DNA of 53,445 nt from Acidimicrobiia bacterium. Lineage in GTDB: Bacteria; Actinomycetota; Acidimicrobiia; Spongiisociales; UBA5794. The stretch is taken from contig JABDJC010000220.1 in assembly GCA_013003395.1 (NCBI GenBank), forward strand, positions 1-53,445. The letters are read 5' to 3'. Within the stretch, counting starts at the first letter, position 1. Each line of letters begins with the position of its first letter. The position numbers and the translations under genes are program-made. This document shows, piece after piece, positions 34,538 to 47,089 of the stretch. The notes beneath the pieces are model-generated. The model searched no databases. It worked only from the letters and a program-made list of their open reading frames with translations, and had not been told where the DNA came from.

Positions 34538-36475
34538 GTGAGCGCAGAGATCCAGGCAACCGAAGCGACCTCCCTGTCTGACGGGGATGTGGCCGCTGCC
34601 AACAGCACATCGTTGGCGCACCTCAGAGTTGCCGGCGCATTTCTCGTTGCAGCTGCGCTACTGGGAATGGTGGCCGCATTCCAGATCGTTGCCCCCGACT
34701 TGCTCAGCGGCGTCGAGATGTTCTCCTACGGCCGGATCGCTCCTGTCGCGCTCGACACCTTCATCTACGGGTGGCTGACGATCGGACTCATCGGGGCTGC
34801 CTATCACATTCTTCCAAAGGTCTCTGAAGCGCCCTTGTGGAATCCGATGCTTGCGAAGACGGGCCTTGGCCTGATCACGCTCGGTGTGGCCATCGGCGGC
34901 CTGGCGGTGCTCTCTGGCTTCAACGAGGGCCGACTGCTGCTCGAGTATCCACTCTGGGCAGACGCGCTCATCGTGTTGGGCGTCGCAATCGCCGCATTCG
35001 TTTGCACGAAGACCGTGTCAGGCGGACAAAAGGACCTGATGCCTGCCCAGTGGTTCCTCGTTGCAGCACCGTGGTGGTTCGTGTTCAGTTTCGTCAGCGG
35101 AAACCTTCCTGGAATCCCGGGTGTCAATTCGCAGCTGCTGACCTCGTTCTTCCAATCCAGCTTCACCGGGCTGTGGCTCGCTGCGGCCGGCGTTGGCGTT
35201 GTCTATCACATCGTTCCTGCACTGACCGGTCACGGCCAGCGGCGGTCCTCGCGGATCTCGCTCATCGTGTTCTGGTCGCTCGCATTCGCCTGGGCCTGGA
35301 CCGGTCCACGATTCAATGTGTACGGACCGGTGCCTGACTGGCTCGAGACCATCGGTGCGTTCTTTGCGATCGGGCTGTTGGTGCCGGCAATCGCAGTCAT
35401 CGCGGACGTCGCATTCACCGTGCGCGACCGTTGGGATCACGTGACCAACCAGGCGGCGATCCGCTACCTCGCTGCCGGCTTCGTCTTCTTCACGATTGCG
35501 GCGGTCCAGAACATGGTGCAGTCGCTTCGGTCGCCTAGTGCGGTCTTGCAGTTCACTGCATGGCAATCGGCTTTCGACCTCGTCTTGTTCTATGGCGCCA
35601 TCTCGTTCTGGCTGTTCGCATTCGTCTCGGTCTCGCTGCCTGCGCTCGCGGGACGCCGTCCCACCGACGTATCGGCGCAGGTGCACTTCGGTGTGTCCGT
35701 CTCTGGTTTGCTGCTCGCCGTCGGAGCATCCTGGTTTGGTGGCCTGCAGCAAGGGCTGACATGGATCGGCACCGCGAACACCGAGGACGTGCTGCCCTAC
35801 GGCGAACAGTTCATCAATTCGGTTGGTCCACTCGAGGGTCCGTGGCTGCTGCGTGCCTTTGGACTGGCACTGTTTGCGCTGGCACAGTTCCTGTTCCTTC
35901 GTTCCCTGTTCGGCGCCGGCGCCGAGGCCACCGATGTAGACCGGGTTGTCGTAGACGATGACGGGGACGATCCAGCGGTCCTCGATCCGGCTCCGCCTGT
36001 GTTGCTGGGCGGGCTGTTGAAAGGCGCCGTCGGCTTGTTTGCCGTTGCGGCTCTCTCAGTTTGGATCCTGCCCAGCTTTGAAGCCGAAAACGTCGAAGGC
36101 ACCATCCTCGGCGACTTCAGCCGCTTCTATGAAGAGGGATCGGATGAGGCTGCCGGTCGACAGATCTACCTCCAGGAAGGCTGCTGGTACTGCCACACAC
36201 AACAAGTCCGACCGATCGTCACCGATGTCGGACTCGGACCCGTGAGCCAGGCAGGAGACTACGTGCACGAGACCCCGGCGATGTTCGGGGTGCAACGGAT
36301 CGGGCCCGACTTGATGCACTCCGGCTCCAGAGAGCCGACGGACTCGGTCGCCTGGCTGACTGCGTATCTCAACGACCCCCGCGCGGTGCGGCCTTGGTCG
36401 ACGATGCCCGCGTATGGCAGTCTGAGTGACACAGAAATCTCGCAACTGGCCGCCTATCTCGTGAGTCTCGACTGA
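34538..36475 (+). CDS. CcoN-like (heme-copper oxidase subunit I homologue) fused to CcoO-like cytochrome c
   Basis: Polytopic YHIVPALTGHGQRRSSRISLIVFWSLAFAWAWTGPRFNVYGPVPDWLETIGAFFAIGLLVP aligns by eye with CcoN; C-terminus EGCWYCHTQQVRPIVTDVGLGPVSQAGDYVHETPAMFGVQRIGPDLMHSG matches CcoO (CxxCH at 36182-36196). Confidence 0.88.
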   Translation: MSAEIQATEATSLSDGDVAAANSTSLAHLRVAGAFLVAAALLGMVAAFQIVAPDLLSGVEMFSYGRIAPVALDTFIYGWLTIGLIGAAYHILPKVSEAPLWNPMLAKTGLGLITLGVAIGGLAVLSGFNEGRLLLEYPLWADALIVLGVAIAAFVCTKTVSGGQKDLMPAQWFLVAAPWWFVFSFVSGNLPGIPGVNSQLLTSFFQSSFTGLWLAAAGVGVVYHIVPALTGHGQRRSSRISLIVFWSLAFAWAWTGPRFNVYGPVPDWLETIGAFFAIGLLVPAIAVIADVAFTVRDRWDHVTNQAAIRYLAAGFVFFTIAAVQNMVQSLRSPSAVLQFTAWQSAFDLVLFYGAISFWLFAFVSVSLPALAGRRPTDVSAQVHFGVSVSGLLLAVGASWFGGLQQGLTWIGTANTEDVLPYGEQFINSVGPLEGPWLLRAFGLALFALAQFLFLRSLFGAGAEATDVDRVVVDDDGDDPAVLDPAPPVLLGGLLKGAVGLFAVAALSVWILPSFEAENVEGTILGDFSRFYEEGSDEAAGRQIYLQEGCWYCHTQQVRPIVTDVGLGPVSQAGDYVHETPAMFGVQRIGPDLMHSGSREPTDSVAWLTAYLNDPRAVRPWSTMPAYGSLSDTEISQLAAYLVSLD

Positions 36476-36477
36476 TC

Positions 36478-37338
36478 ATGCAAGAACAGCTCGCTTCCAT
36501 CTCCGCTGAACTGGGAGTTCCAACCGACCTGGTGGAACGTGCGGCACGTGCTCGCGCCACCGCTACCGGGACGACGGTGGAGCAGATCGTTGCTGCCTGG
36601 AGCGGCGGAGAGGCGGCGCCGGCAGCGGCAGCTCCTCCCGCAGCGTCTGCAGCCGCTCCTGCAGCTGCCCCGGCGGCGGCGGCTCCTGCAGCGCCGGCTG
36701 GGCCGATCGTCGAAATCTTCGAGCCAACGGCCGCTCCGCCTGAAGTTGAAGTAGAGGTTGAACCTGAGGTGCCCGAGCCCGTGAAGCGTCGGGCCGTGCC
36801 CGTTTGGATGATGGCCACGTTCGTCGCGATTCCCGCAGTGGCCCTCATGTACGCATTGTTGATTCCGAACGGGCCAGACTGCGGAGGTGGCGGCCAACTC
36901 GCCATCGATCCCGTCACTGGAGTTGCGCAGTCTTGCGATGGTTCTGAATACGGTGTCAGCGCGGTCGATTTCTTCGCGATGGGCAGCGACCTGTACGCCA
37001 CCCAATGTGCGGCTTGCCACGGTGCGGAAGGCGGCGGCGGCGCCGGCCCCGCATTCACCGGAGGAGCAGTCCTCGCCAGTTTTCCCACTGATCAGTGTGC
37101 GACCCACGTCGAGTGGGTGGCTCTGGGGAGCAGCGCCTGGCCGGAAGCCACCTATGGAGCGTTGGACACACCAGTCGGCAGCAGTGGTGGCGTGATGCCA
37201 GGCTTCGGGTCACGCCTGTCACCGGAAGAGCTAGCAGCCGTCGTGCTCTATGAGCGTGTGGCGTTCGGTGGAGAGGGCATCGGAGTTGCAGAGGCCGATT
37301 GCGGACTCGGCGACGAAGCGGTTGCTGCCGGCGAATAG
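36478..37338 (+). CDS. Membrane-anchored cytochrome c with N-terminal helical motif and Ala/Pro linker
   Basis: LGVPTDLVERAARARATATGTTVEQIVAAW; APA linker; TM VPVWMMATFVAIPAVALMYALLIP; CAACHGAEGGGGAGPAFTGG; MPGFGSRLSPEELAAVVLYER. Confidence 0.88.
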   Translation: MQEQLASISAELGVPTDLVERAARARATATGTTVEQIVAAWSGGEAAPAAAAPPAASAAAPAAAPAAAAPAAPAGPIVEIFEPTAAPPEVEVEVEPEVPEPVKRRAVPVWMMATFVAIPAVALMYALLIPNGPDCGGGGQLAIDPVTGVAQSCDGSEYGVSAVDFFAMGSDLYATQCAACHGAEGGGGAGPAFTGGAVLASFPTDQCATHVEWVALGSSAWPEATYGALDTPVGSSGGVMPGFGSRLSPEELAAVVLYERVAFGGEGIGVAEADCGLGDEAVAAGE

Positions 37339-37384: not shown

Positions 37385-38641
37385 GTGGGTAACGTCCTCA
37401 TCGTGAATCCAGAAGTAGTGATCGTTGGCGGTGGGCCGGGCGGAGCGGCGGCGGCCTATTGGCTTGCTCGCTCAGGTCACTCGGTAGTCCTCGCCGAAAA
37501 GAAGCGATTCCCGCGAGACAAGACCTGCGGTGACGGGCTCACACCCCGAGCAATACATCAACTGACCGAGATGGGATTCGACTTCGCGGTGCCGGAGCTG
37601 CACAAGATCGTGGGATTGCGAGCGTACGCCGGCGGAGTGAAGCTCGAGATGCCTTGGCCCGATCACAGCATCTACCCCAACTGGGGAGCAGTGATTCGTC
37701 GGACCGACCTGGACATGCAGGTTGCTGCCCTCGCCGAAAAGCAAGGGGCGCTCATTCTGCAGGGCACCACGGCTGAACCGGTCGTCGAGGGAGGCCGACT
37801 CACTGGCGTGCGATTGAAAGACGGCGATGGCGACGAGCGCTTGGTCCACCCCAAGGTCACCGTCATCGCGGACGGATCCCTCTCCAGGTTTGGGCGCAAA
37901 CTCGGCACCGAGCGCAACAAGGCGTATCCGTACGGATTGGCCGTGAGGGGGTACTACAACTCACCGCGGTCCGACGACCAATATCTCGAGTCACACCTCG
38001 ACATCCGAGACAGCAATGGCAGCCCACTTCCTGGCTACGGCTGGATCTTCCCGCTCGGTGATGGCCAACTGAACATCGGGGCAGGAGCCGTGTCAACCTT
38101 CAAGGGTTGGAAGGAATTCAATTCGAACAAGCTCATGGACGCACTGATCGAAGCCCTTCCTGAGTACTGGGGGGTCACGCCGGAATCGGTGGTTGTGGCG
38201 CCAAAAGGCGGCAAGCTCCCGATGACGTTCTCGGTTTCGCCGAAGGCCGGCCCGAATTGGGTGCTGGTTGGAGATGCAGCAGGAGCAGTGAACGCGTTCA
38301 ACGGTGAAGGCATCGATTACGGGTACGAAACCGGTCGCCTCGCCGCCCACTACATCTCGCAAGCAATCGGAAGCGATGATCTCGGCTTGCTGCAGAACTA
38401 TCCCGCTGCGCTCGAAGACCAATACGGCTTGTACAACAAGGTCGCTCGCCTGTTCTTGACGGCGATTGGAAGGCCCCAAGTGATGGGTGCTCTGGTCCGG
38501 ACGGGAATGCGGTCACGGCCGCTGATGGAATGGGTGTTGAAGGTGATGGCCAACCTGATGGAGCCGGAGGACCGGGGCTTCGGAGAACAGGTCTACGGCG
38601 CGATCGAACGAATCGTACGCGTCACTCCTGACGTGCGCTGA
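37385..38641 (+). CDS. Geranylgeranyl-reductase-family FAD-dependent oxidoreductase
   Basis: VVIVGGGPGGAAAAYWLARSGHSVVLAEKKRFPRDKTCGDGLTPRAIHQL; VGDAAGAVNAFNGEGIDYGYETGRLAA. Confidence 0.93.
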   Translation: MGNVLIVNPEVVIVGGGPGGAAAAYWLARSGHSVVLAEKKRFPRDKTCGDGLTPRAIHQLTEMGFDFAVPELHKIVGLRAYAGGVKLEMPWPDHSIYPNWGAVIRRTDLDMQVAALAEKQGALILQGTTAEPVVEGGRLTGVRLKDGDGDERLVHPKVTVIADGSLSRFGRKLGTERNKAYPYGLAVRGYYNSPRSDDQYLESHLDIRDSNGSPLPGYGWIFPLGDGQLNIGAGAVSTFKGWKEFNSNKLMDALIEALPEYWGVTPESVVVAPKGGKLPMTFSVSPKAGPNWVLVGDAAGAVNAFNGEGIDYGYETGRLAAHYISQAIGSDDLGLLQNYPAALEDQYGLYNKVARLFLTAIGRPQVMGALVRTGMRSRPLMEWVLKVMANLMEPEDRGFGEQVYGAIERIVRVTPDVR

Positions 38642-38743: not shown

Positions 38744-41700
38744 TTGCCAATCGAGCCGTTCGTGAACACACAAACCACTTCTAAATCCGTAGACACCGCG
38801 CGTCGATGGGAGGGCCGTCCGGTCCTCTCATTCGCCGTGCGTTCTGCAGTCTTTCTGCTTCCGATCCTGGCGTCGATCGGAGTATCCGTGGGATTGTCCA
38901 AGGCGGCCCCATCGCCTGACAACGTGATCCAGCTCGGGCTGATCTGGTTGGTGATCATCGTGGCGTCGACGGCAACTCTCATGAGCGTGGAGAAAGTGGC
39001 TCGCAAGGCGCTCCCGCTGGCAGCGATGCTGAGCCTCACGATGGTGTTTCCGGATCAATCGCCGTCGCGTTTCCGAACTGCCCTTCGATCTGGCTCATCA
39101 GTGAAGAATCTTCGCGCCATCCTGGCCGAGGCCGAGTCGGTGGACGACAACTCGCCGGCTAAATCAGCTGAGTTGGTGTTGCAGCTGGCCACGGCACTCA
39201 ACACTCACGACCCTCGCACCCGTGGTCATGCCGAGCGCGTTCGGGCTTACACGGAGATGTTGGCCGAAGAAATGAACATCGGCGACGAGGACCGGGCAAA
39301 ACTGCGTTGGGCGTCATTGCTTCACGACATCGGCAAGTTGAAGGTCTCCACCGACATCTTGAACAAGCCAGGCAAACTCGACGACGACGAGTGGGAGCAG
39401 ATCAAGCTACACCCGGTCTTCGGTGAGGAGATTTGCGGACCTCTCCTCGACTGGCTCGGACCATGGGCCGGAGCGGTTGTCGATCACCACGAGCGCTTTG
39501 ACGGAAACGGGTACCCACACGGCAAGGCCGGTAGCGAGATCTCGCAAGCCGGCCGGATCGTCTGTGTCGCAGATGCGTACGACGTGATGACGACGGTGCG
39601 TTCCTACAAGGAACCGATGTCGACGGCCGAGGCTCGCCAAGAGCTGGCGCGTCACGCCGGAGCCCAGTTCGATCCAAAGGTCGTGCGGACGTTCCTGAAT
39701 CTCTCGATGGGCCGCCTGCGATGGATCGCTGGTCCGTTGTCGTGGCTGGCGCAGCTGCCGTTCCTCCAAGGTCTGGCCGGTGTGGCGCAGAGCGTCGGGT
39801 CGACGGTTGGTGTTGCCGCAGTCGCGACGGGCGGGGCTGCCGCCGCCCTCACGACCGGAGTCGTGACCTTGCCAGGCAGCGGACCGCTCGAGCTTCCGGA
39901 ACCACCTCCCGCATTGGTGCAATTCGTCGACACGCAATACGCACCCGTCGCCAGAGACGATTTCGCAACTGCAACGCAAGACGCGCGGCGAGTCATCGAC
40001 GTGTTGAACAACGATGCGCTGTCGAGCATTGACACCCTGGCGATCGTCGTCGACCCGTCGTTCGGAACCGTCATCGTCAACGCCGACGGCACCGTCACCT
40101 ACATTCCGTCCGGCGAGTACGTCGGTGAGGACGAATTCGTCTACGAAGTTATCGACAGCGGCGGGCAATCGACGACGGCAACGGTCGTGATCACGGTGGT
40201 TGGGGTCAATGATGCGCCGATCGTCCGAGGCGACTCTGCGACCGTCGACGAAGACGACGCAGTCGATATCGATGTGCTTGCAAACGACAGCGACGCAGAT
40301 GGGGCCATCGCCGCCATCGAGCTCGTCGGCCAACCTTCGAACGGCGTCGCAACCCTCAACAGCAACTTGACGGTCAACTACCGGCCAGATGCCGACTTCT
40401 TCGGATCTGATCTGATCACCTACGTCGCCATCGATGAGGATGGCGCACGGTCGGAGGGCACCGTCGCAGTGGTGGTCCGGCCGGTCAACGACCCTGTCGT
40501 CGATCCGGGGCCGGGGACGCTCGTGGCGGCTGGGGGCAAGACTGTTCGTTTCGACCCGCTGGCGCTGGCCGTCGACAAAGACGGGGACACAGTGTTCCTC
40601 GCATGGTTCGACTCGATCTCGATCGCTGGAGGCACTGTCGTCGAGGGAAGTCTCATCTACACACCGCCATATGCGTACTCGGGTTCCGACTCCTTCCGTT
40701 ATGCGCTGTCGGACGGAATCGTCGAGACCGTCGTAACCGTACGGCTCGATGTACGGGGCACCCCGGACACAGCTGGACCCACGATCACGCTGCTCGGCCC
40801 GAACCCGCTGGTCCTGAACATCGGTGACGAGTTCACCGATCCAGGGGCGCAGGTCGCAGACGCCGACCCATCCTTCAAACCATCGTTCATAGTCGACGCT
40901 ACCGCCGTCGATACGAGCAAGGCCGGTTCGTATCTCGTCGTCTACACGTCGACCGACCCGACGGGGAACACGTCGACCCGCACAAGGACCGTCGTCGTGG
41001 AAGACCCGAACGGCCCTCAACTGTTGGTCAAGGGTTCGAATCCGCTCACGATGGAGGCCGGACAGCTGTACGTCGAGGCCGGCGCCACCGCCTCCGACGC
41101 GAAAGACGGTGACCTCACCGCGTCGGTCATCGTCGACGCTTCGCTGCTCAATGCCGGTCGACCAGGAACCTATACGGTCTCATATCGAGTCACCGACTCG
41201 GATGGAAAGCAGGCCACAGCGCAACGCACGGTCAAAGTGATCGACACCACGAAGCCCAAGATCGTGCTGAAGGGCGCCGATCCGCAGACCATCGAAGCCG
41301 GTGGGGCCTATGTGGAACTCGGTGCCACGGCGGCAGACAACGACACCAGCTTCGCCGCGAGCGCTGTCCCTGATGCCAGCGGCGTGGACGCCTCTCGTCC
41401 CGGTACCTACACCGTCACGTACTCAGTCAGCGACTCTTCGGGCAACAGCGCAAACCCGGCAGTCCGAACGGTGAACGTCGTGGACACGACGAAGCCTGTC
41501 ATCACACTGCAAGGAGCGAACCCTCAGAACATCGAGACCGGCAATCCCTATGTGGAATTGGGAGCAACGGCTACCGACAACGACGCGACGTTCACAGCAT
41601 CGCCAACCGCGGACACCTCGGGGGTCAACACGTCTGTCTCTGGCACCTATACCGTCGTCTATACAGTCGCCGACGCATCGGGTAACACCACAACCAAGAA

Positions 41701-44700
41701 CCGAACCGTTGTTGTGGGCGACATCACGCCGCCAGTCGTCACCCCTACCGGTGCGAATCCGCAGGTCATCGAAGCCGGGAGTGCGTATGTGGAGTTGGGT
41801 GCGACGGCCACGGACAACGACCCGACATTTGCGGCTGTGCCGAGCGCCGACTCGTCGAGTGTCAACACGTCGGTTCCTGGCTCGTACTCGGTGGTGTATT
41901 CGGTGACTGATCCGTCCGGCAACACGGGGACTGCAAACCGGACCGTGGCGGTGGTGGACACGACCGCCCCGGTCATCACGGTGATTGGCAGCAATCCGCA
42001 GGTGATCGAGGCCGGGAGTGCGTATGTGGAGTTGGGTGCGACGGCGACGGACAATGATGCGACGTTCTCGGCGACGCCTACAGCGAATTCGTCGGGAGTG
42101 AATACGTCGGTTCCTGGGTCGTACTCGGTGAGCTATTCGGTGACGGATCCGTCTGGCAACACGGGGACTGCAAACCGGAGCGTGACGGTGGTGGACACGA
42201 CGGCCCCGGTCATCACGGTGATTGGCAGCAATCCGCAGGTGATCGAAGCCGGCGCGGCGTATGTGGAGTTGGGTGCAACGGCGACGGACAATGATGCGAC
42301 GTTCTCAACGACGCCTACGGCGAATTCGTCGGGAGTGAACACGTCGATTCCTGGGTCGTACTCGGTGAGCTATTCGGTGACCGATCCGTCGGGGAACATC
42401 GGGACTGCCAATCGGACGGTGGCGGTGGTGGATACGACTGCTCCGGTCATCAGCCCAACTGGCGCCAATCCGCAAGTCATCGAGGCTGGAGCGCCCTACG
42501 TCGAACTCGGAGCAACGGCGACCGACAACGACGCCACTTTCGGTGGGGTGCCGGCTGCGGACGCGTCTGGAGTGGATACCTCAACACCTGGTTCATATCT
42601 CGTGGCGTATTCGGTCACTGATCCGTCCGGCAACATCGGGACGGCGAATCGAACCGTTGCCGTGGTAGATACGACCGACCCCGTAATCACGGTGACCGGT
42701 GCCGATCCCCAGACCATCGAGGCCGGCTCTTCCTATTCAGAACTCGGAGCATCAGCCACGGACAACGACGCGTCGTTCTCAGCTTCGCCAGTCCCAGACG
42801 CGTCAGGCGTAGACACCGCAACGCCGGGTTCGTACATCGTGGTTTATTCCGTGACCGATCCGTCCGGGAACACCGGCACCGCGAGCCGCGGCGTTGACGT
42901 GGTCGACACCACGCCGCCCGTCGTGACCGCGAGCCAGACGGGTGCGGTCCTCGAGACAGCCACTGTCGGCACGACGGTGATGACCGTCGCCGCAACCGAC
43001 ACCGTGGGAGTCACCGGATTCACCATCGTCGGGGGATCGCCCACGTTCTCGATCGACGCGGCCGGAGTGATCCGCACGTTGGTCCTGCTCGATCACGAAA
43101 CGACGTCGTCATACGGCCTGTCGATCACCGCGACCGATGATGCCGGCAACACATCTGCTGCGGAAACCGTCACCGTCGATGTCGACGACGTCAATGAGCC
43201 GCCGATCGCGGTCAACGATGGAGGTTTCTCAACAACCACTGATGTGACTATCTCTATCGACTCGGCCGACCTGCTCAGCAACGACAGCGATCCCGATGCA
43301 GAGAGCCCGATCTTCGATGACGTTGTCAGCACGACGACCACGCAGGGTGGAACCATCGAGGATCCGGAGAGCGACGGTGTCTACCTGTATACGCCGCCGG
43401 CCGGTGTCGACGGGATCACGGACACGTTCGACTATCGAATCCGCGATGCGCTCGGGCTCACGGACACTGCAACGGTGAGCATCTCGATCGGATCGGCGGT
43501 CTCCGACCCGGCGTTGACCAGCATCGACCCGGCAAGTAGCCCGGCGAGCCCGATCCAAGCGGTGGTCGGCCAGGAGACCCGGATCGACGTGTACGTGCAA
43601 AACCTCTCGGGCGACCCCGCACCGGGTGTCGAGATCACGGTGACGGTCGACAGCGCCGACTTCCTCCTCGTCAACTCGGGAGGATGCTCGCAGACGGCGA
43701 CGGAGGTCGTGTGTCTGCTCGGCAAGGTGAATTCGCTCCAGATCAAGAGCCACAAGGTGGAGTTGGTGCCCCAGAACGTCGGATCCGGCTGGGCGTTGCC
43801 GGTGGTCGTGACGATGAACGGCTCGGACACCGACGGCACCAACAACTCGGGAACGATCTATTTGGACGTCACGCCCACCCCGCTGCTCGTCAGCGAGTTC
43901 GCCACCGAGGGGCCGGGCGACTTCATTGAGCTGTACAACGCCGGGACCTCCGACATCGACATCGCCGGCCTCGAGGTGCGCCTAAACGGCGCTGGTGTGA
44001 GCGACATCACGCTGGCCGGTGCCGACACGGTGCTCGCACCAGGTGAGCATTTTCTCCTAGCCGACGATGCGGGCGACCTCGACGGGGCTGCCGACCAGAC
44101 GTTCGCCTTCGATTTGCCGGCGGATCTGGGTATTCGGATCCGGGATGCTTCGGGTGTCGTCGATGAAGTCGGGACAGGGACGTCGTCGTGGTTCGAGGGT
44201 GCTGCGCTCCCGGCGATGGTGGTGGACCCAACAACAGAGCAGAGCTACGAGCGCCTCGACAGCTCCACCTCCGGGAGCTGCGTCGACACCGGAGACAACG
44301 GCGCCGACTTCATCCGCCACTGGGACCATCGGGATCCGCAGGCGACCGACGACCTGGCGACGCCATGCGGTGCGCCCCTCTACGTGGTGTCTGCCGACGC
44401 CGGTGTCGTGGTGGTCAACGAACTGTTGTATTCCCAGACGGGGGCGAAGGACGAGTTCATTGAGCTCTACAACGCCGGGGGCTCGGACTACGACCTGACG
44501 GGCTTGCGGCTGACCGACTCGAGTCCGTTCACCGGTCACGTCGACCCCAACGATCCCCTCGACTTCACGATTCCCGCAACCGACCTGGCGTCCAACCCAT
44601 CGACGCTTCCCCCAGGTGGCATCGCCGTCATCTGGCTCCAAGAGGACGGTGGCGACACCGGCGCGGCGCTGCACTACAACGTCGATGAAGGGGACCCTGG

Positions 44701-46522
44701 AGTGCTTTCCAACGTGGCCGACGAAGTCTGGCTCGTGGACACTTCAGGCGCCATTGTCGATTATGTCGCCTATGGGGCCGCCAACACCGGAGAGAGGGAC
44801 ACGCCCATTCCAGATGCTCTCGGCATGTGGAACGCCGCCGGTGAAGCCGCGCTCGGCGGCGTCGCAGCCGGCACTTCCATCGCCCTCACCCCCTCAGGCC
44901 TCGATTCCGATGACAGCGCGTGTTGGGAGGTGACCGGTACCGGAACATCGTCCTGCGGTCCGGGCACTGTCGACCTCGACGCAGCCGCCGGTCGAGTGAC
45001 GTCCGTCGGCAGCAACAACAACAATCTGGTTGCCGACGTTGCGTTCCACAGTTCCGTGCCTGCGGGGAACTTGGCGAATCCCGTCCAAGTCACGACCGGC
45101 GTGCCGATGACCATCGACATCACCGCGGAGAACCGCGGCCCATCTCAAGCGCCGGCGTCGAAGGTGTTGCTGCCGCTCGCAACCGGCGAATTCGCGTTCA
45201 ACGGTGGACCCAGCTCGCCCGGATGCGCCTACGACGCGGTCGACCAGGAGGTCACGTGCTCCATCGGTGTTCTGGCGTCCGGAAACAGCGAAACGGTGAC
45301 GATAGGTATCACACCACTCCTTCCAGGCAGCTACACCTTGGCCCTCAGCGTGAATTCGGTCTCGGCGACGGATCCCGATCTGACCAACAACGCGGGCGCA
45401 ATCTCCGTCGACGTCGTACCCACGCCCACACACGTCGTGATCAGTGAGTTCTCGACGGATCGTGCCACGGACTTCGTCGAGCTGTACAACCCGACCAGCG
45501 CTCCGGTGCTGCTCGATGGCTATACGCTCAGGGTGTACCCGCCCGATGGCACGGCAGGCTTCACCGTGGAAGCAACCATCCCACTCGCCAGCTCGACGTT
45601 CATCCCCGCGAACGGCTACTTCCTCATCGGAAACACACCGGATTTGGCACCCGTGGCGGCGGATCATGCGGCGAGCTTCGACGTGGCGCAGTACGGCGGC
45701 GTGGAGATCGCCGACGCGCTCGGAGCCGCGATCGACGGTGCCGGCACGGCGCCTCGCCCTGGGGGCGGCCCGAACGAGCAAGGTGCCGCCTCGAGTGAGG
45801 GCAACGGCGTCGCCGCGATGAACCCCGGCCCGAACGAGCAGTCGATGCAGCGAAGGCACGGCGACGGCCTTGGCAGCTGCATCGACACAGACGACAACGC
45901 CTCAGACTTCGTCCACAACAACGGTGGCGTGAGCCCCAAGAACACCTCGACGGTTGAAGCCTGCGGAACTCCGCCGCTTCCGCCCCCGTCGTCGGCGGCC
46001 GGCGTGGTCATCTCGGAGATCCGGACCGATGGTCCCAATGGCGGTGGCGACGAGATGATCGAGATCTTCAACGCCGGACCGACCTCGGTCGACCTCTTGA
46101 ACTGGGAGCTGCAAGTCGGCGATGGCTTCACTTTGATCTTCAGGTTCAATTCTTTGATCCTCGAGCCAGGTCAGCACTTCCTGTTCGCCACTGCGTCGTC
46201 CGGACTGACGGCCGACACGATCTACGGGCCCGGTGGTACCTCGATCCACGGCACGCTGTTCACGACCGACACCGTCACCAACGGTGCCGCCGTGAGGATC
46301 GTCGACGGCGGCGGAACGCCCATCGACACGGTCGGGTTCGACGGTCCCCCGGCGGAGGGGAATTCCCTGCCGTCACTGTCTACACGAGGGCCGAGCTACG
46401 AGCGCCGGGGCGGAGGCGCCTACGGCAGCTGTGTCGACACCGGCGACAACCTCAGCGACTTCTACATCCGCTCGGTGCCCGATCCTCAAACGCTGGGTGA
46501 CCCGTTCGCCATCTGTTTGTGA
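38744..46522 (+). CDS. Giant transmembrane HD-GYP phosphodiesterase fused to extracellular cadherin-like/DUF5011-like/CARDB-like/lamin-tail-domain repeats
   Basis: N-terminal TMs; HD-GYP motifs LLHDIGKLKVSTDILNKPGKL and HHERFDGNGYP, DAYDVMTTVRSYK; TM near residues 330-370; VNDAPIVRGDSATVDEDDAVDIDVLANDSD; nine ~79-aa Ig-like repeats; four ISEF...FIELYN LTD-type segments. Confidence 0.92.
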   Translation: MPIEPFVNTQTTSKSVDTARRWEGRPVLSFAVRSAVFLLPILASIGVSVGLSKAAPSPDNVIQLGLIWLVIIVASTATLMSVEKVARKALPLAAMLSLTMVFPDQSPSRFRTALRSGSSVKNLRAILAEAESVDDNSPAKSAELVLQLATALNTHDPRTRGHAERVRAYTEMLAEEMNIGDEDRAKLRWASLLHDIGKLKVSTDILNKPGKLDDDEWEQIKLHPVFGEEICGPLLDWLGPWAGAVVDHHERFDGNGYPHGKAGSEISQAGRIVCVADAYDVMTTVRSYKEPMSTAEARQELARHAGAQFDPKVVRTFLNLSMGRLRWIAGPLSWLAQLPFLQGLAGVAQSVGSTVGVAAVATGGAAAALTTGVVTLPGSGPLELPEPPPALVQFVDTQYAPVARDDFATATQDARRVIDVLNNDALSSIDTLAIVVDPSFGTVIVNADGTVTYIPSGEYVGEDEFVYEVIDSGGQSTTATVVITVVGVNDAPIVRGDSATVDEDDAVDIDVLANDSDADGAIAAIELVGQPSNGVATLNSNLTVNYRPDADFFGSDLITYVAIDEDGARSEGTVAVVVRPVNDPVVDPGPGTLVAAGGKTVRFDPLALAVDKDGDTVFLAWFDSISIAGGTVVEGSLIYTPPYAYSGSDSFRYALSDGIVETVVTVRLDVRGTPDTAGPTITLLGPNPLVLNIGDEFTDPGAQVADADPSFKPSFIVDATAVDTSKAGSYLVVYTSTDPTGNTSTRTRTVVVEDPNGPQLLVKGSNPLTMEAGQLYVEAGATASDAKDGDLTASVIVDASLLNAGRPGTYTVSYRVTDSDGKQATAQRTVKVIDTTKPKIVLKGADPQTIEAGGAYVELGATAADNDTSFAASAVPDASGVDASRPGTYTVTYSVSDSSGNSANPAVRTVNVVDTTKPVITLQGANPQNIETGNPYVELGATATDNDATFTASPTADTSGVNTSVSGTYTVVYTVADASGNTTTKNRTVVVGDITPPVVTPTGANPQVIEAGSAYVELGATATDNDPTFAAVPSADSSSVNTSVPGSYSVVYSVTDPSGNTGTANRTVAVVDTTAPVITVIGSNPQVIEAGSAYVELGATATDNDATFSATPTANSSGVNTSVPGSYSVSYSVTDPSGNTGTANRSVTVVDTTAPVITVIGSNPQVIEAGAAYVELGATATDNDATFSTTPTANSSGVNTSIPGSYSVSYSVTDPSGNIGTANRTVAVVDTTAPVISPTGANPQVIEAGAPYVELGATATDNDATFGGVPAADASGVDTSTPGSYLVAYSVTDPSGNIGTANRTVAVVDTTDPVITVTGADPQTIEAGSSYSELGASATDNDASFSASPVPDASGVDTATPGSYIVVYSVTDPSGNTGTASRGVDVVDTTPPVVTASQTGAVLETATVGTTVMTVAATDTVGVTGFTIVGGSPTFSIDAAGVIRTLVLLDHETTSSYGLSITATDDAGNTSAAETVTVDVDDVNEPPIAVNDGGFSTTTDVTISIDSADLLSNDSDPDAESPIFDDVVSTTTTQGGTIEDPESDGVYLYTPPAGVDGITDTFDYRIRDALGLTDTATVSISIGSAVSDPALTSIDPASSPASPIQAVVGQETRIDVYVQNLSGDPAPGVEITVTVDSADFLLVNSGGCSQTATEVVCLLGKVNSLQIKSHKVELVPQNVGSGWALPVVVTMNGSDTDGTNNSGTIYLDVTPTPLLVSEFATEGPGDFIELYNAGTSDIDIAGLEVRLNGAGVSDITLAGADTVLAPGEHFLLADDAGDLDGAADQTFAFDLPADLGIRIRDASGVVDEVGTGTSSWFEGAALPAMVVDPTTEQSYERLDSSTSGSCVDTGDNGADFIRHWDHRDPQATDDLATPCGAPLYVVSADAGVVVVNELLYSQTGAKDEFIELYNAGGSDYDLTGLRLTDSSPFTGHVDPNDPLDFTIPATDLASNPSTLPPGGIAVIWLQEDGGDTGAALHYNVDEGDPGVLSNVADEVWLVDTSGAIVDYVAYGAANTGERDTPIPDALGMWNAAGEAALGGVAAGTSIALTPSGLDSDDSACWEVTGTGTSSCGPGTVDLDAAAGRVTSVGSNNNNLVADVAFHSSVPAGNLANPVQVTTGVPMTIDITAENRGPSQAPASKVLLPLATGEFAFNGGPSSPGCAYDAVDQEVTCSIGVLASGNSETVTIGITPLLPGSYTLALSVNSVSATDPDLTNNAGAISVDVVPTPTHVVISEFSTDRATDFVELYNPTSAPVLLDGYTLRVYPPDGTAGFTVEATIPLASSTFIPANGYFLIGNTPDLAPVAADHAASFDVAQYGGVEIADALGAAIDGAGTAPRPGGGPNEQGAASSEGNGVAAMNPGPNEQSMQRRHGDGLGSCIDTDDNASDFVHNNGGVSPKNTSTVEACGTPPLPPPSSAAGVVISEIRTDGPNGGGDEMIEIFNAGPTSVDLLNWELQVGDGFTLIFRFNSLILEPGQHFLFATASSGLTADTIYGPGGTSIHGTLFTTDTVTNGAAVRIVDGGGTPIDTVGFDGPPAEGNSLPSLSTRGPSYERRGGGAYGSCVDTGDNLSDFYIRSVPDPQTLGDPFAICL
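39170..39700 (+). other. HD-GYP domain within the giant CDS
   Basis: ALNTHDPRTRGHAERVRAYTEMLAEEM...LLHDIGK...HPVFGEEI...HHERFDGNGYP...DAYDVMTT, all metal/GYP motifs present. Confidence 0.9.
40775..42913 (+). repeat. Nine tandem ~237-bp units encoding DUF5011-like Ig repeats
   Basis: Units start near 40775, 41011, 41253, 41496, 41732, 41968, 42205, 42442, 42679; consensus G(A/S)NPQVIEAGxxYVELGATATDNDATF...SGVNTSVPGSYSVxYSVTDPSGNTGTANRxVxVVDTTAPVI. Confidence 0.92.
43888..46519 (+). other. Four lamin-tail-domain-like segments interspersed with CARDB/DUF11-like domains
   Basis: LVSEFATEGPGDFIELYNAG; VVNELLYSQTGAKDEFIELYNAG; VISEFSTDRATDFVELYNPT; VISEIRTDGPNGGGDEMIEIFNAG; each ends with SCVDTGDNxxDF-type motif. 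Confidence 0.85.
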
Positions 46523-46642: not shown

Positions 46643-47089
46643 ATGACGCTGACCGACTATCTCCCCATAGCCCTGATGTTCGTCGTGGGCCTCGGCTTCG
46701 CCGGAGTGTCTCTCGCGCTGTCGTGGTGGCTCGCACCCAACAAGCCGACACCAGAAAAGCTTGCTCCCTACGAGTGCGGGATCGTTCCGCTCCAAGACCC
46801 GGTCAATCGCTTTCCCGTCAAGTTCTATCTGGTCGCCATGTTGTTCGTCATCTTCGACGTCGAGATCATCTTCTTGTTCCTCTGGGCCGTTCGATTCCAG
46901 GAGCTCGGCTGGTTAGGTATCGCAGTCATCGCCGTGTTCGTCCTGTTGATCTTCGAAACTCTCGGTTACGTGTGGAAGCGTGGAGCTCTCGACTGGAACG
47001 TGGCGAGTCGCGAGCGTCATCGCAGAGTTGTGGCGCCTCTGACCAGCCAGACCGTTGGCGGCGTCGGCGCCGGGGAGGAAGCCGCCTGA
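46643..47089 (+). CDS. nuoA: NADH-quinone oxidoreductase subunit A
   Basis: [45 protein letters not shown]. Confidence 0.95.

Follow-up and report, generated by a model that had tools for sequence, protein, structure and literature searches.

The window analysed here is a single contig of 53,445 nucleotides from the 3.24-Mb, 82% complete genome assembly of an Acidimicrobiia bacterium. It carries an uninterrupted open reading frame of 2592 codons (38744-46522, +), counted from a TTG start, which lies between a FAD-dependent gene and nuoA (Table 1). The start of this giant gene is weakly marked (TTG1 or GTG7; a clear Shine-Dalgarno sequence is lacking), and the codon-position GC pattern is coding-like across the entire frame (GC3 0.66-0.85). 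An antisense open frame of 537 codons (39407-41020, -) is unsupported as a gene and was treated as a by-product of the high GC content, probably arising through codon bias. Further upstream, COX1 and FixO matches share one frame (34538-37338, +; a cbb3-type oxidase fusion), followed by a gene with a cytochrome-c domain; there is no evident reason for a giant phosphodiesterase gene to lie within a respiratory gene cluster.

Table 1. Features of the giant gene and of its two neighbours, in window coordinates (residue numbers refer to the 2592-aa protein).
Feature	Position	Strand	Basis or remark
FAD-dependent gene (geranylgeranyl-reductase-like), upstream, syntenic	37385..38641	+	FAD-binding Pfam matches; the reductase name is an interpretation
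Whole giant gene, 2592 aa	38744..46522	+	TTG start (or GTG at 38762)
TM1 (residues 26-54) and TM2 (from residue 61; hydrophobic core 64-82)	38819..38989	+	Hydropathy; AF2 helices 26-54 and 61-97
Conserved juxtamembrane motif LPLA..(L/M)..FPD.(A/S)PSR (residues 83-125), net positive, predicted cytoplasmic	38990..39118	+	
HD-GYP domain (residues 149-313): HDIGK, HHERFDGNGYP, DAYD	39188..39682	+	Pfam HD_5; PDB relatives; invariant residues
Conserved putative coupling segment from HD-GYP to TM3 (LRWIAGPLSWLAQLPF, within residues 320-350)	39701..39793	+	
TM3 (residues 356-374), Gly/Ala-rich, weak in this member	39809..39865	+	Hydropathy
First Ig/cadherin-like domains (Big_9, Cadherin_5, tandem-95), residues about 400-674	39941..40765	+	
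Nine tandem PF16403 (DUF5011) domains of about 79 aa each, residues about 678-1397	40775..42934	+	
Cadherin (PF00028, 1400-1480) and a further Big_9 domain, to residue about 1587	42941..43504	+	
Four LTD domains, starting near residues 1716, 1884, 2233 and 2423, with local Cys pairs	43889..46519	+	
nuoA, downstream, first gene of the complex I operon, syntenic	46643..47089	+	Pfam Oxidored_q4

An earlier note on this DNA had described an HD-GYP enzyme and a giant stalk in one open reading frame, and this observation is confirmed at the level of the sequence. The Pfam search finds HD_5 (residues 149-313, 6e-31) and, after the third hydrophobic segment, about 2,200 residues of Ig/cadherin-like, DUF5011 and lamin-tail (LTD) domains, with four Big_9/Cadherin_5 stretches, nine of PF16403 (formerly DUF5011), one Cadherin and four LTD (5.8e-51), in agreement with the domains then proposed; the exception is the "CARDB-like" domain, which has no match at E<=0.01 in the 2592-aa protein (DUF11 occurs in one relative). 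Structure prediction points the same way, since TM1, TM2, the HD-GYP domain and the Ig domains are confident in the AF2 model and only TM3 is uncertain: the helices 26-54 and 61-97 have pLDDT mostly about 90 or more up to residue 90, and the beta domains 406-486 and 497-579 are mostly above 90. Foldseek returns HD-GYP structures first (PmGH and PA4781 at the top), followed for the most part by folds of cadherins and adhesins. A large tandem Ig/cadherin-like array, predicted to be extracellular, is a feature of giant surface adhesins; its tip is formed by the LTD domains, which point to no specific ligand. Within the DUF5011 array, five copies are directly repeated as 237-nt units of 70-88% identity; because such repeats lie in a fragmented assembly, the exact copy number is likely but not certain.

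The gene occupies the same locus in other genomes. The FAD gene adjoins the giant gene also in L155, L144 and L145, and the nuoA neighbour is kept in L155 and L206. In L155, which belongs to the same family and encodes a 2452-aa form, the order is oxidase, cytochrome c, FAD reductase, giant gene and nuoA, with the oxidase fusion and cytochrome-c gene upstream as in the window. In G015, from another family, the first 513 aa follow the FAD reductase on one contig, while a second contig encodes 1738 aa and, after them, nuoA and nuoB; the contigs share an overlap of 127 identical bases, and joining them there gives a protein of about 2209 aa. Two bacterial families have the giant form flanked by the FAD reductase gene and nuoA, with lengths of 2592, 2452 and about 2209 aa; a further giant (G030, at least 2159 aa) is cut by a contig end. 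A frameshift or assembly error joining two genes, which the earlier note had raised as an objection to its own reading, is ruled out because the same join is present in dozens of genomes, single-contig ones included (G119, G217 and G099 are single-contig genomes with members). Nor did the internal start that the note had likewise named as a refutation turn up as a conserved feature of the members, and the frame is best read as encoding one polypeptide.

When the architecture was sought in related genomes, 51 of 395 sampled Acidimicrobiia genomes proved to encode the N-terminal module (TM, TM, HD-GYP, TM3), nearly always at full length, and it also occurs in other families of the phylum; members were separated by a gap in module score (about 340 vs 227 bits), the lower-scoring matches aligning over the HD-GYP part alone. 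The part that follows the module ranges from 112 to 2275 aa in 50 complete distinct members, most of which have tails of 112-340 residues and seven of which exceed 1000; the L146 protein, 635 aa in all, is one of the short members. The giant stalk is therefore one extreme of a class-wide family whose members mostly have modest ectodomains, which the single sequence available to the earlier note could not reveal. The tree places giants in three or more separate, supported positions (the window protein with L155, L144 and L145; L033 with L162; and the f49/f59 group). The outer domains also differ between members (LTD, FG-GAP, NHL, PKD, Thr-rich linkers or only low-complexity tails), none of them being common to all, and the short tails are rich in Pro, Ser, Gly and Thr. 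Outer parts change fast across the family, and the window protein and its L155 counterpart are 54% identical over residues 14-657 and match only patchily beyond. Some genomes carry two members: the genome under study encodes a 1047-aa paralogue of the same architecture (L143:5929-9069, -) with a Thr/Ser-rich linker and seven Big_9 stretches, and G377 likewise has two. One member (L172:4680-7379, -) ends in a run of near-identical GPVLGDDGLLGGG repeats in place of Ig domains. Another (L034:9989-11701, +), among the matches listed, comes from a genome labelled Candidatus Dormiibacterota, outside Actinomycetota, through either transfer or mis-binning.

Several computed features support a topology in which the enzyme would be cytoplasmic and the stalk extracellular on one chain, as the earlier note had proposed. 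Hydropathy gives three transmembrane candidates in the 2592-aa protein (27-45, 64-82 and 356-374), of which TM3 is weak (KD 1.55; AF2 pLDDT about 40); across the family, 52 of 59 members have a TM3 value of 1.5 KD or more. Positive charge prevails in the loop that follows TM2 (median net charge +6 across members), and the 40 residues after TM3 contain on average 0.8 basic vs 4.4 acidic residues, so that the positive-inside pattern is kept, with the positive loops predicted inside and the acidic flank outside. Additionally, the number of cysteines in the outer part is even in all 51 complete ORFs (one protein being present twice among them), including 38/38 of those with any Cys, although the relatedness of the members means that these are not 38 independent trials; in the cytoplasmic module the count is odd in 16 of the 51. 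Even counts fit disulfides outside the cell, and local pairs occur in the outer part of the window protein (1648/1657, 1846/1875, 2060/2071, 2379/2407 and 2563/2591). The segments on either side of the catalytic domain are also conserved: P91, F102, P103 and P107 of the juxtamembrane motif are invariant in 59 aligned rows, as are R326, G330, P331, P339 and F340 of the coupling segment in a 13-row alignment, the latter segment being modelled by AF2 as two helices (311-336 and 339-350).

The HD-GYP domain appears complete, as the earlier note had stated, save for one variable metal ligand. Residues D156, H162, H194, D195, K198, H223, H248, H249, D277 and R286 are invariant in 60/60 members and, mapped onto PmGH, whose catalytic and metal residues are defined in PMC4159591, the catalytic pair (D183/K225) and seven of the eight metal ligands are likewise invariant in 60/60. 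The eighth ligand, E185, is missing in all members; the window protein has R at residue 158 (39215-39217), and the family as a whole has R, L, K, I, M, V, A, Q or T, which is neither the E/D nor the Y/F of the two published HD-GYP groups. An E185-type ligand is absent in one of these groups, and the PmGH E185A variant retains reduced activity (PMC4159591). The replacement may mark a distinct type of metal site and, since R takes the place of this ligand, the metal content and rate are uncertain. The top phmmer matches among solved structures, V-cGAP3, PmGH and PA4781, are active enzymes. A cyclic dinucleotide is the expected class of substrate, with c-di-GMP the most likely one and 3'3'-cGAMP a further candidate, since the closest solved relative by sequence acts on the latter. 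Since the catalytic residues are invariant, unlike those of the inactive DvhD, the members look like working enzymes and a degenerate receptor is disfavoured. The choice of c-di-GMP draws on the genome itself, which has 9 GGDEF, 3 EAL, 8 HD_5 and 2 MshEN matches; no PilZ effectors were found in this 82% complete assembly.

Based on these observations, we propose, with a probability of about one half and on the strength of sequence comparisons, that the protein is a membrane-anchored phosphodiesterase for cyclic dinucleotides, c-di-GMP being the most likely substrate, and that its activity is tuned by an ectodomain reaching across the wall. In this mechanism, the C-terminus would run through TM3 into a disulfide-stabilised stalk (Ig-like, cadherin-like and LTD domains) that crosses the wall, and whose state would be set by a bound ligand, a neighbouring cell, matrix or a surface. 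TM3 and the conserved GPL-WLAQ-PF segment would relay this state to the enzyme and so determine its phosphodiesterase activity, resulting in a one-component outside-in regulator of c-di-GMP, with type IV pilus ATPases carrying MshEN domains, among others, as possible outputs. Outside-in regulation is favoured because the inner module and the TM3 link are conserved while the outer part varies, in a manner resembling that of ligand-binding or reach-setting parts. A single-polypeptide touch sensor, in which tension or binding on the stalk would switch the phosphodiesterase through TM3 without pilus, flagellum or Wsp-type array, is an unlikely special form of this idea.

The main rival is that the outer part is a passive tether which, as an anchor in the wall or a stalk on the surface, does no more than position a constitutively active phosphodiesterase, with free drift in stalk length. 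Tails ranging from short Pro/Ser/Gly/Thr-rich stretches to giants, with no universal outer domain, would be expected of it, but the strong conservation of the segment between HD-GYP and TM3, and the retention of the giant form at one locus in two bacterial families, weigh in the other direction, and we regard it as possible but rather improbable. Two further explanations are less likely. In one of them, control would run inside-out, the HD-GYP domain binding c-di-GMP and altering the display or cleavage of an adhesive stalk, as in a LapD/DvhD receptor fused to an adhesin. The outer domains are indeed similar to those of large adhesins, and DvhD, an HD-GYP protein, governs adhesins by binding c-di-GMP (PMC13090378); nevertheless, the HD and HH metal residues lost in DvhD are kept in 60/60 members here, and no LapG-type periplasmic protease (PF06035) was matched in the 82% complete genome, which leaves this explanation doubtful. 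Finally, an internal start or a cleavage near TM3 could yield two products, a cytoplasmic enzyme and a secreted adhesin. A GTG at codon 347, with a 4-nt AAGG upstream, does precede a hydrophobic, signal-peptide-like stretch, yet only 6/60 members combine a start codon around TM3 with at least 5 nt of Shine-Dalgarno match, and they do so at scattered positions, making this the most improbable of the explanations considered. As to the interpretation in the earlier note, a single chain with an apparently complete enzyme, predicted inside, and repeats predicted outside is supported; the adhesin role, the sensing of contact or force and a stalk exposure dependent on nucleotide binding are unsupported, the last being better suited to inactive receptors such as LapD and DvhD than to a family with invariant catalytic residues.

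Because the relatives share the inner part and differ greatly in outer length, they probably form a family of surface-sensing enzymes. If the stalk does control the enzyme, a whole little-studied actinobacterial class would couple the surface to second-messenger breakdown on one chain, and the conserved inner module with its swappable outer parts provides a natural length series (112 to 2275 residues) in which outside-in signalling could be probed. Three apparatuses that recognise surfaces and are linked to c-di-GMP are named in a 2022 review (PMC8846402), including the type IV pilus, the flagellum and Wsp.

Among known systems, PmGH, PA4781 and V-cGAP3 resemble the present proteins in the catalytic domain, the HHExxDGxGYP-type motif and the metal residues, E185 of PmGH being the ligand that is not kept; to our knowledge, all three have cytoplasmic regulatory domains and no ectodomain stalk. 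DvhD of Desulfovibrio is likewise a membrane HD-GYP protein tied to large adhesins, a c-di-GMP receptor acting on them through DvhG and catalytically dead, with SQ replacing HD and the HH residues lost (PMC13090378). It differs in having a periplasmic dCache domain and adhesins that are separate proteins, whereas here the catalytic residues are intact and the stalk is on the same chain. LapD/LapG/LapA also links c-di-GMP to a giant surface protein, but through separate proteins in Gram-negative bacteria and an inactive GGDEF-EAL receptor, and no PF06035 match was found in the present, 82% complete genome; the intact residues set the family apart from degenerate nucleotide-binding domains of the LapD/DvhD type. 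No literature precedent for an HD-GYP enzyme with such ectodomains was found in a search covering mainly openly available published papers. As a review notes thousands of architectures for these enzyme domains, the family is a new variation on the one-component HD-GYP theme. Surface proteins with tandem-95, LTD and Big_9 domains have similar outer domains, which here lie C-terminal to a cytoplasmic signalling enzyme, and the protein itself is a one-component HD-GYP enzyme whose ectodomain is exceptional, its novelty lying in the giant stalk and in being part of a family and not a singleton.
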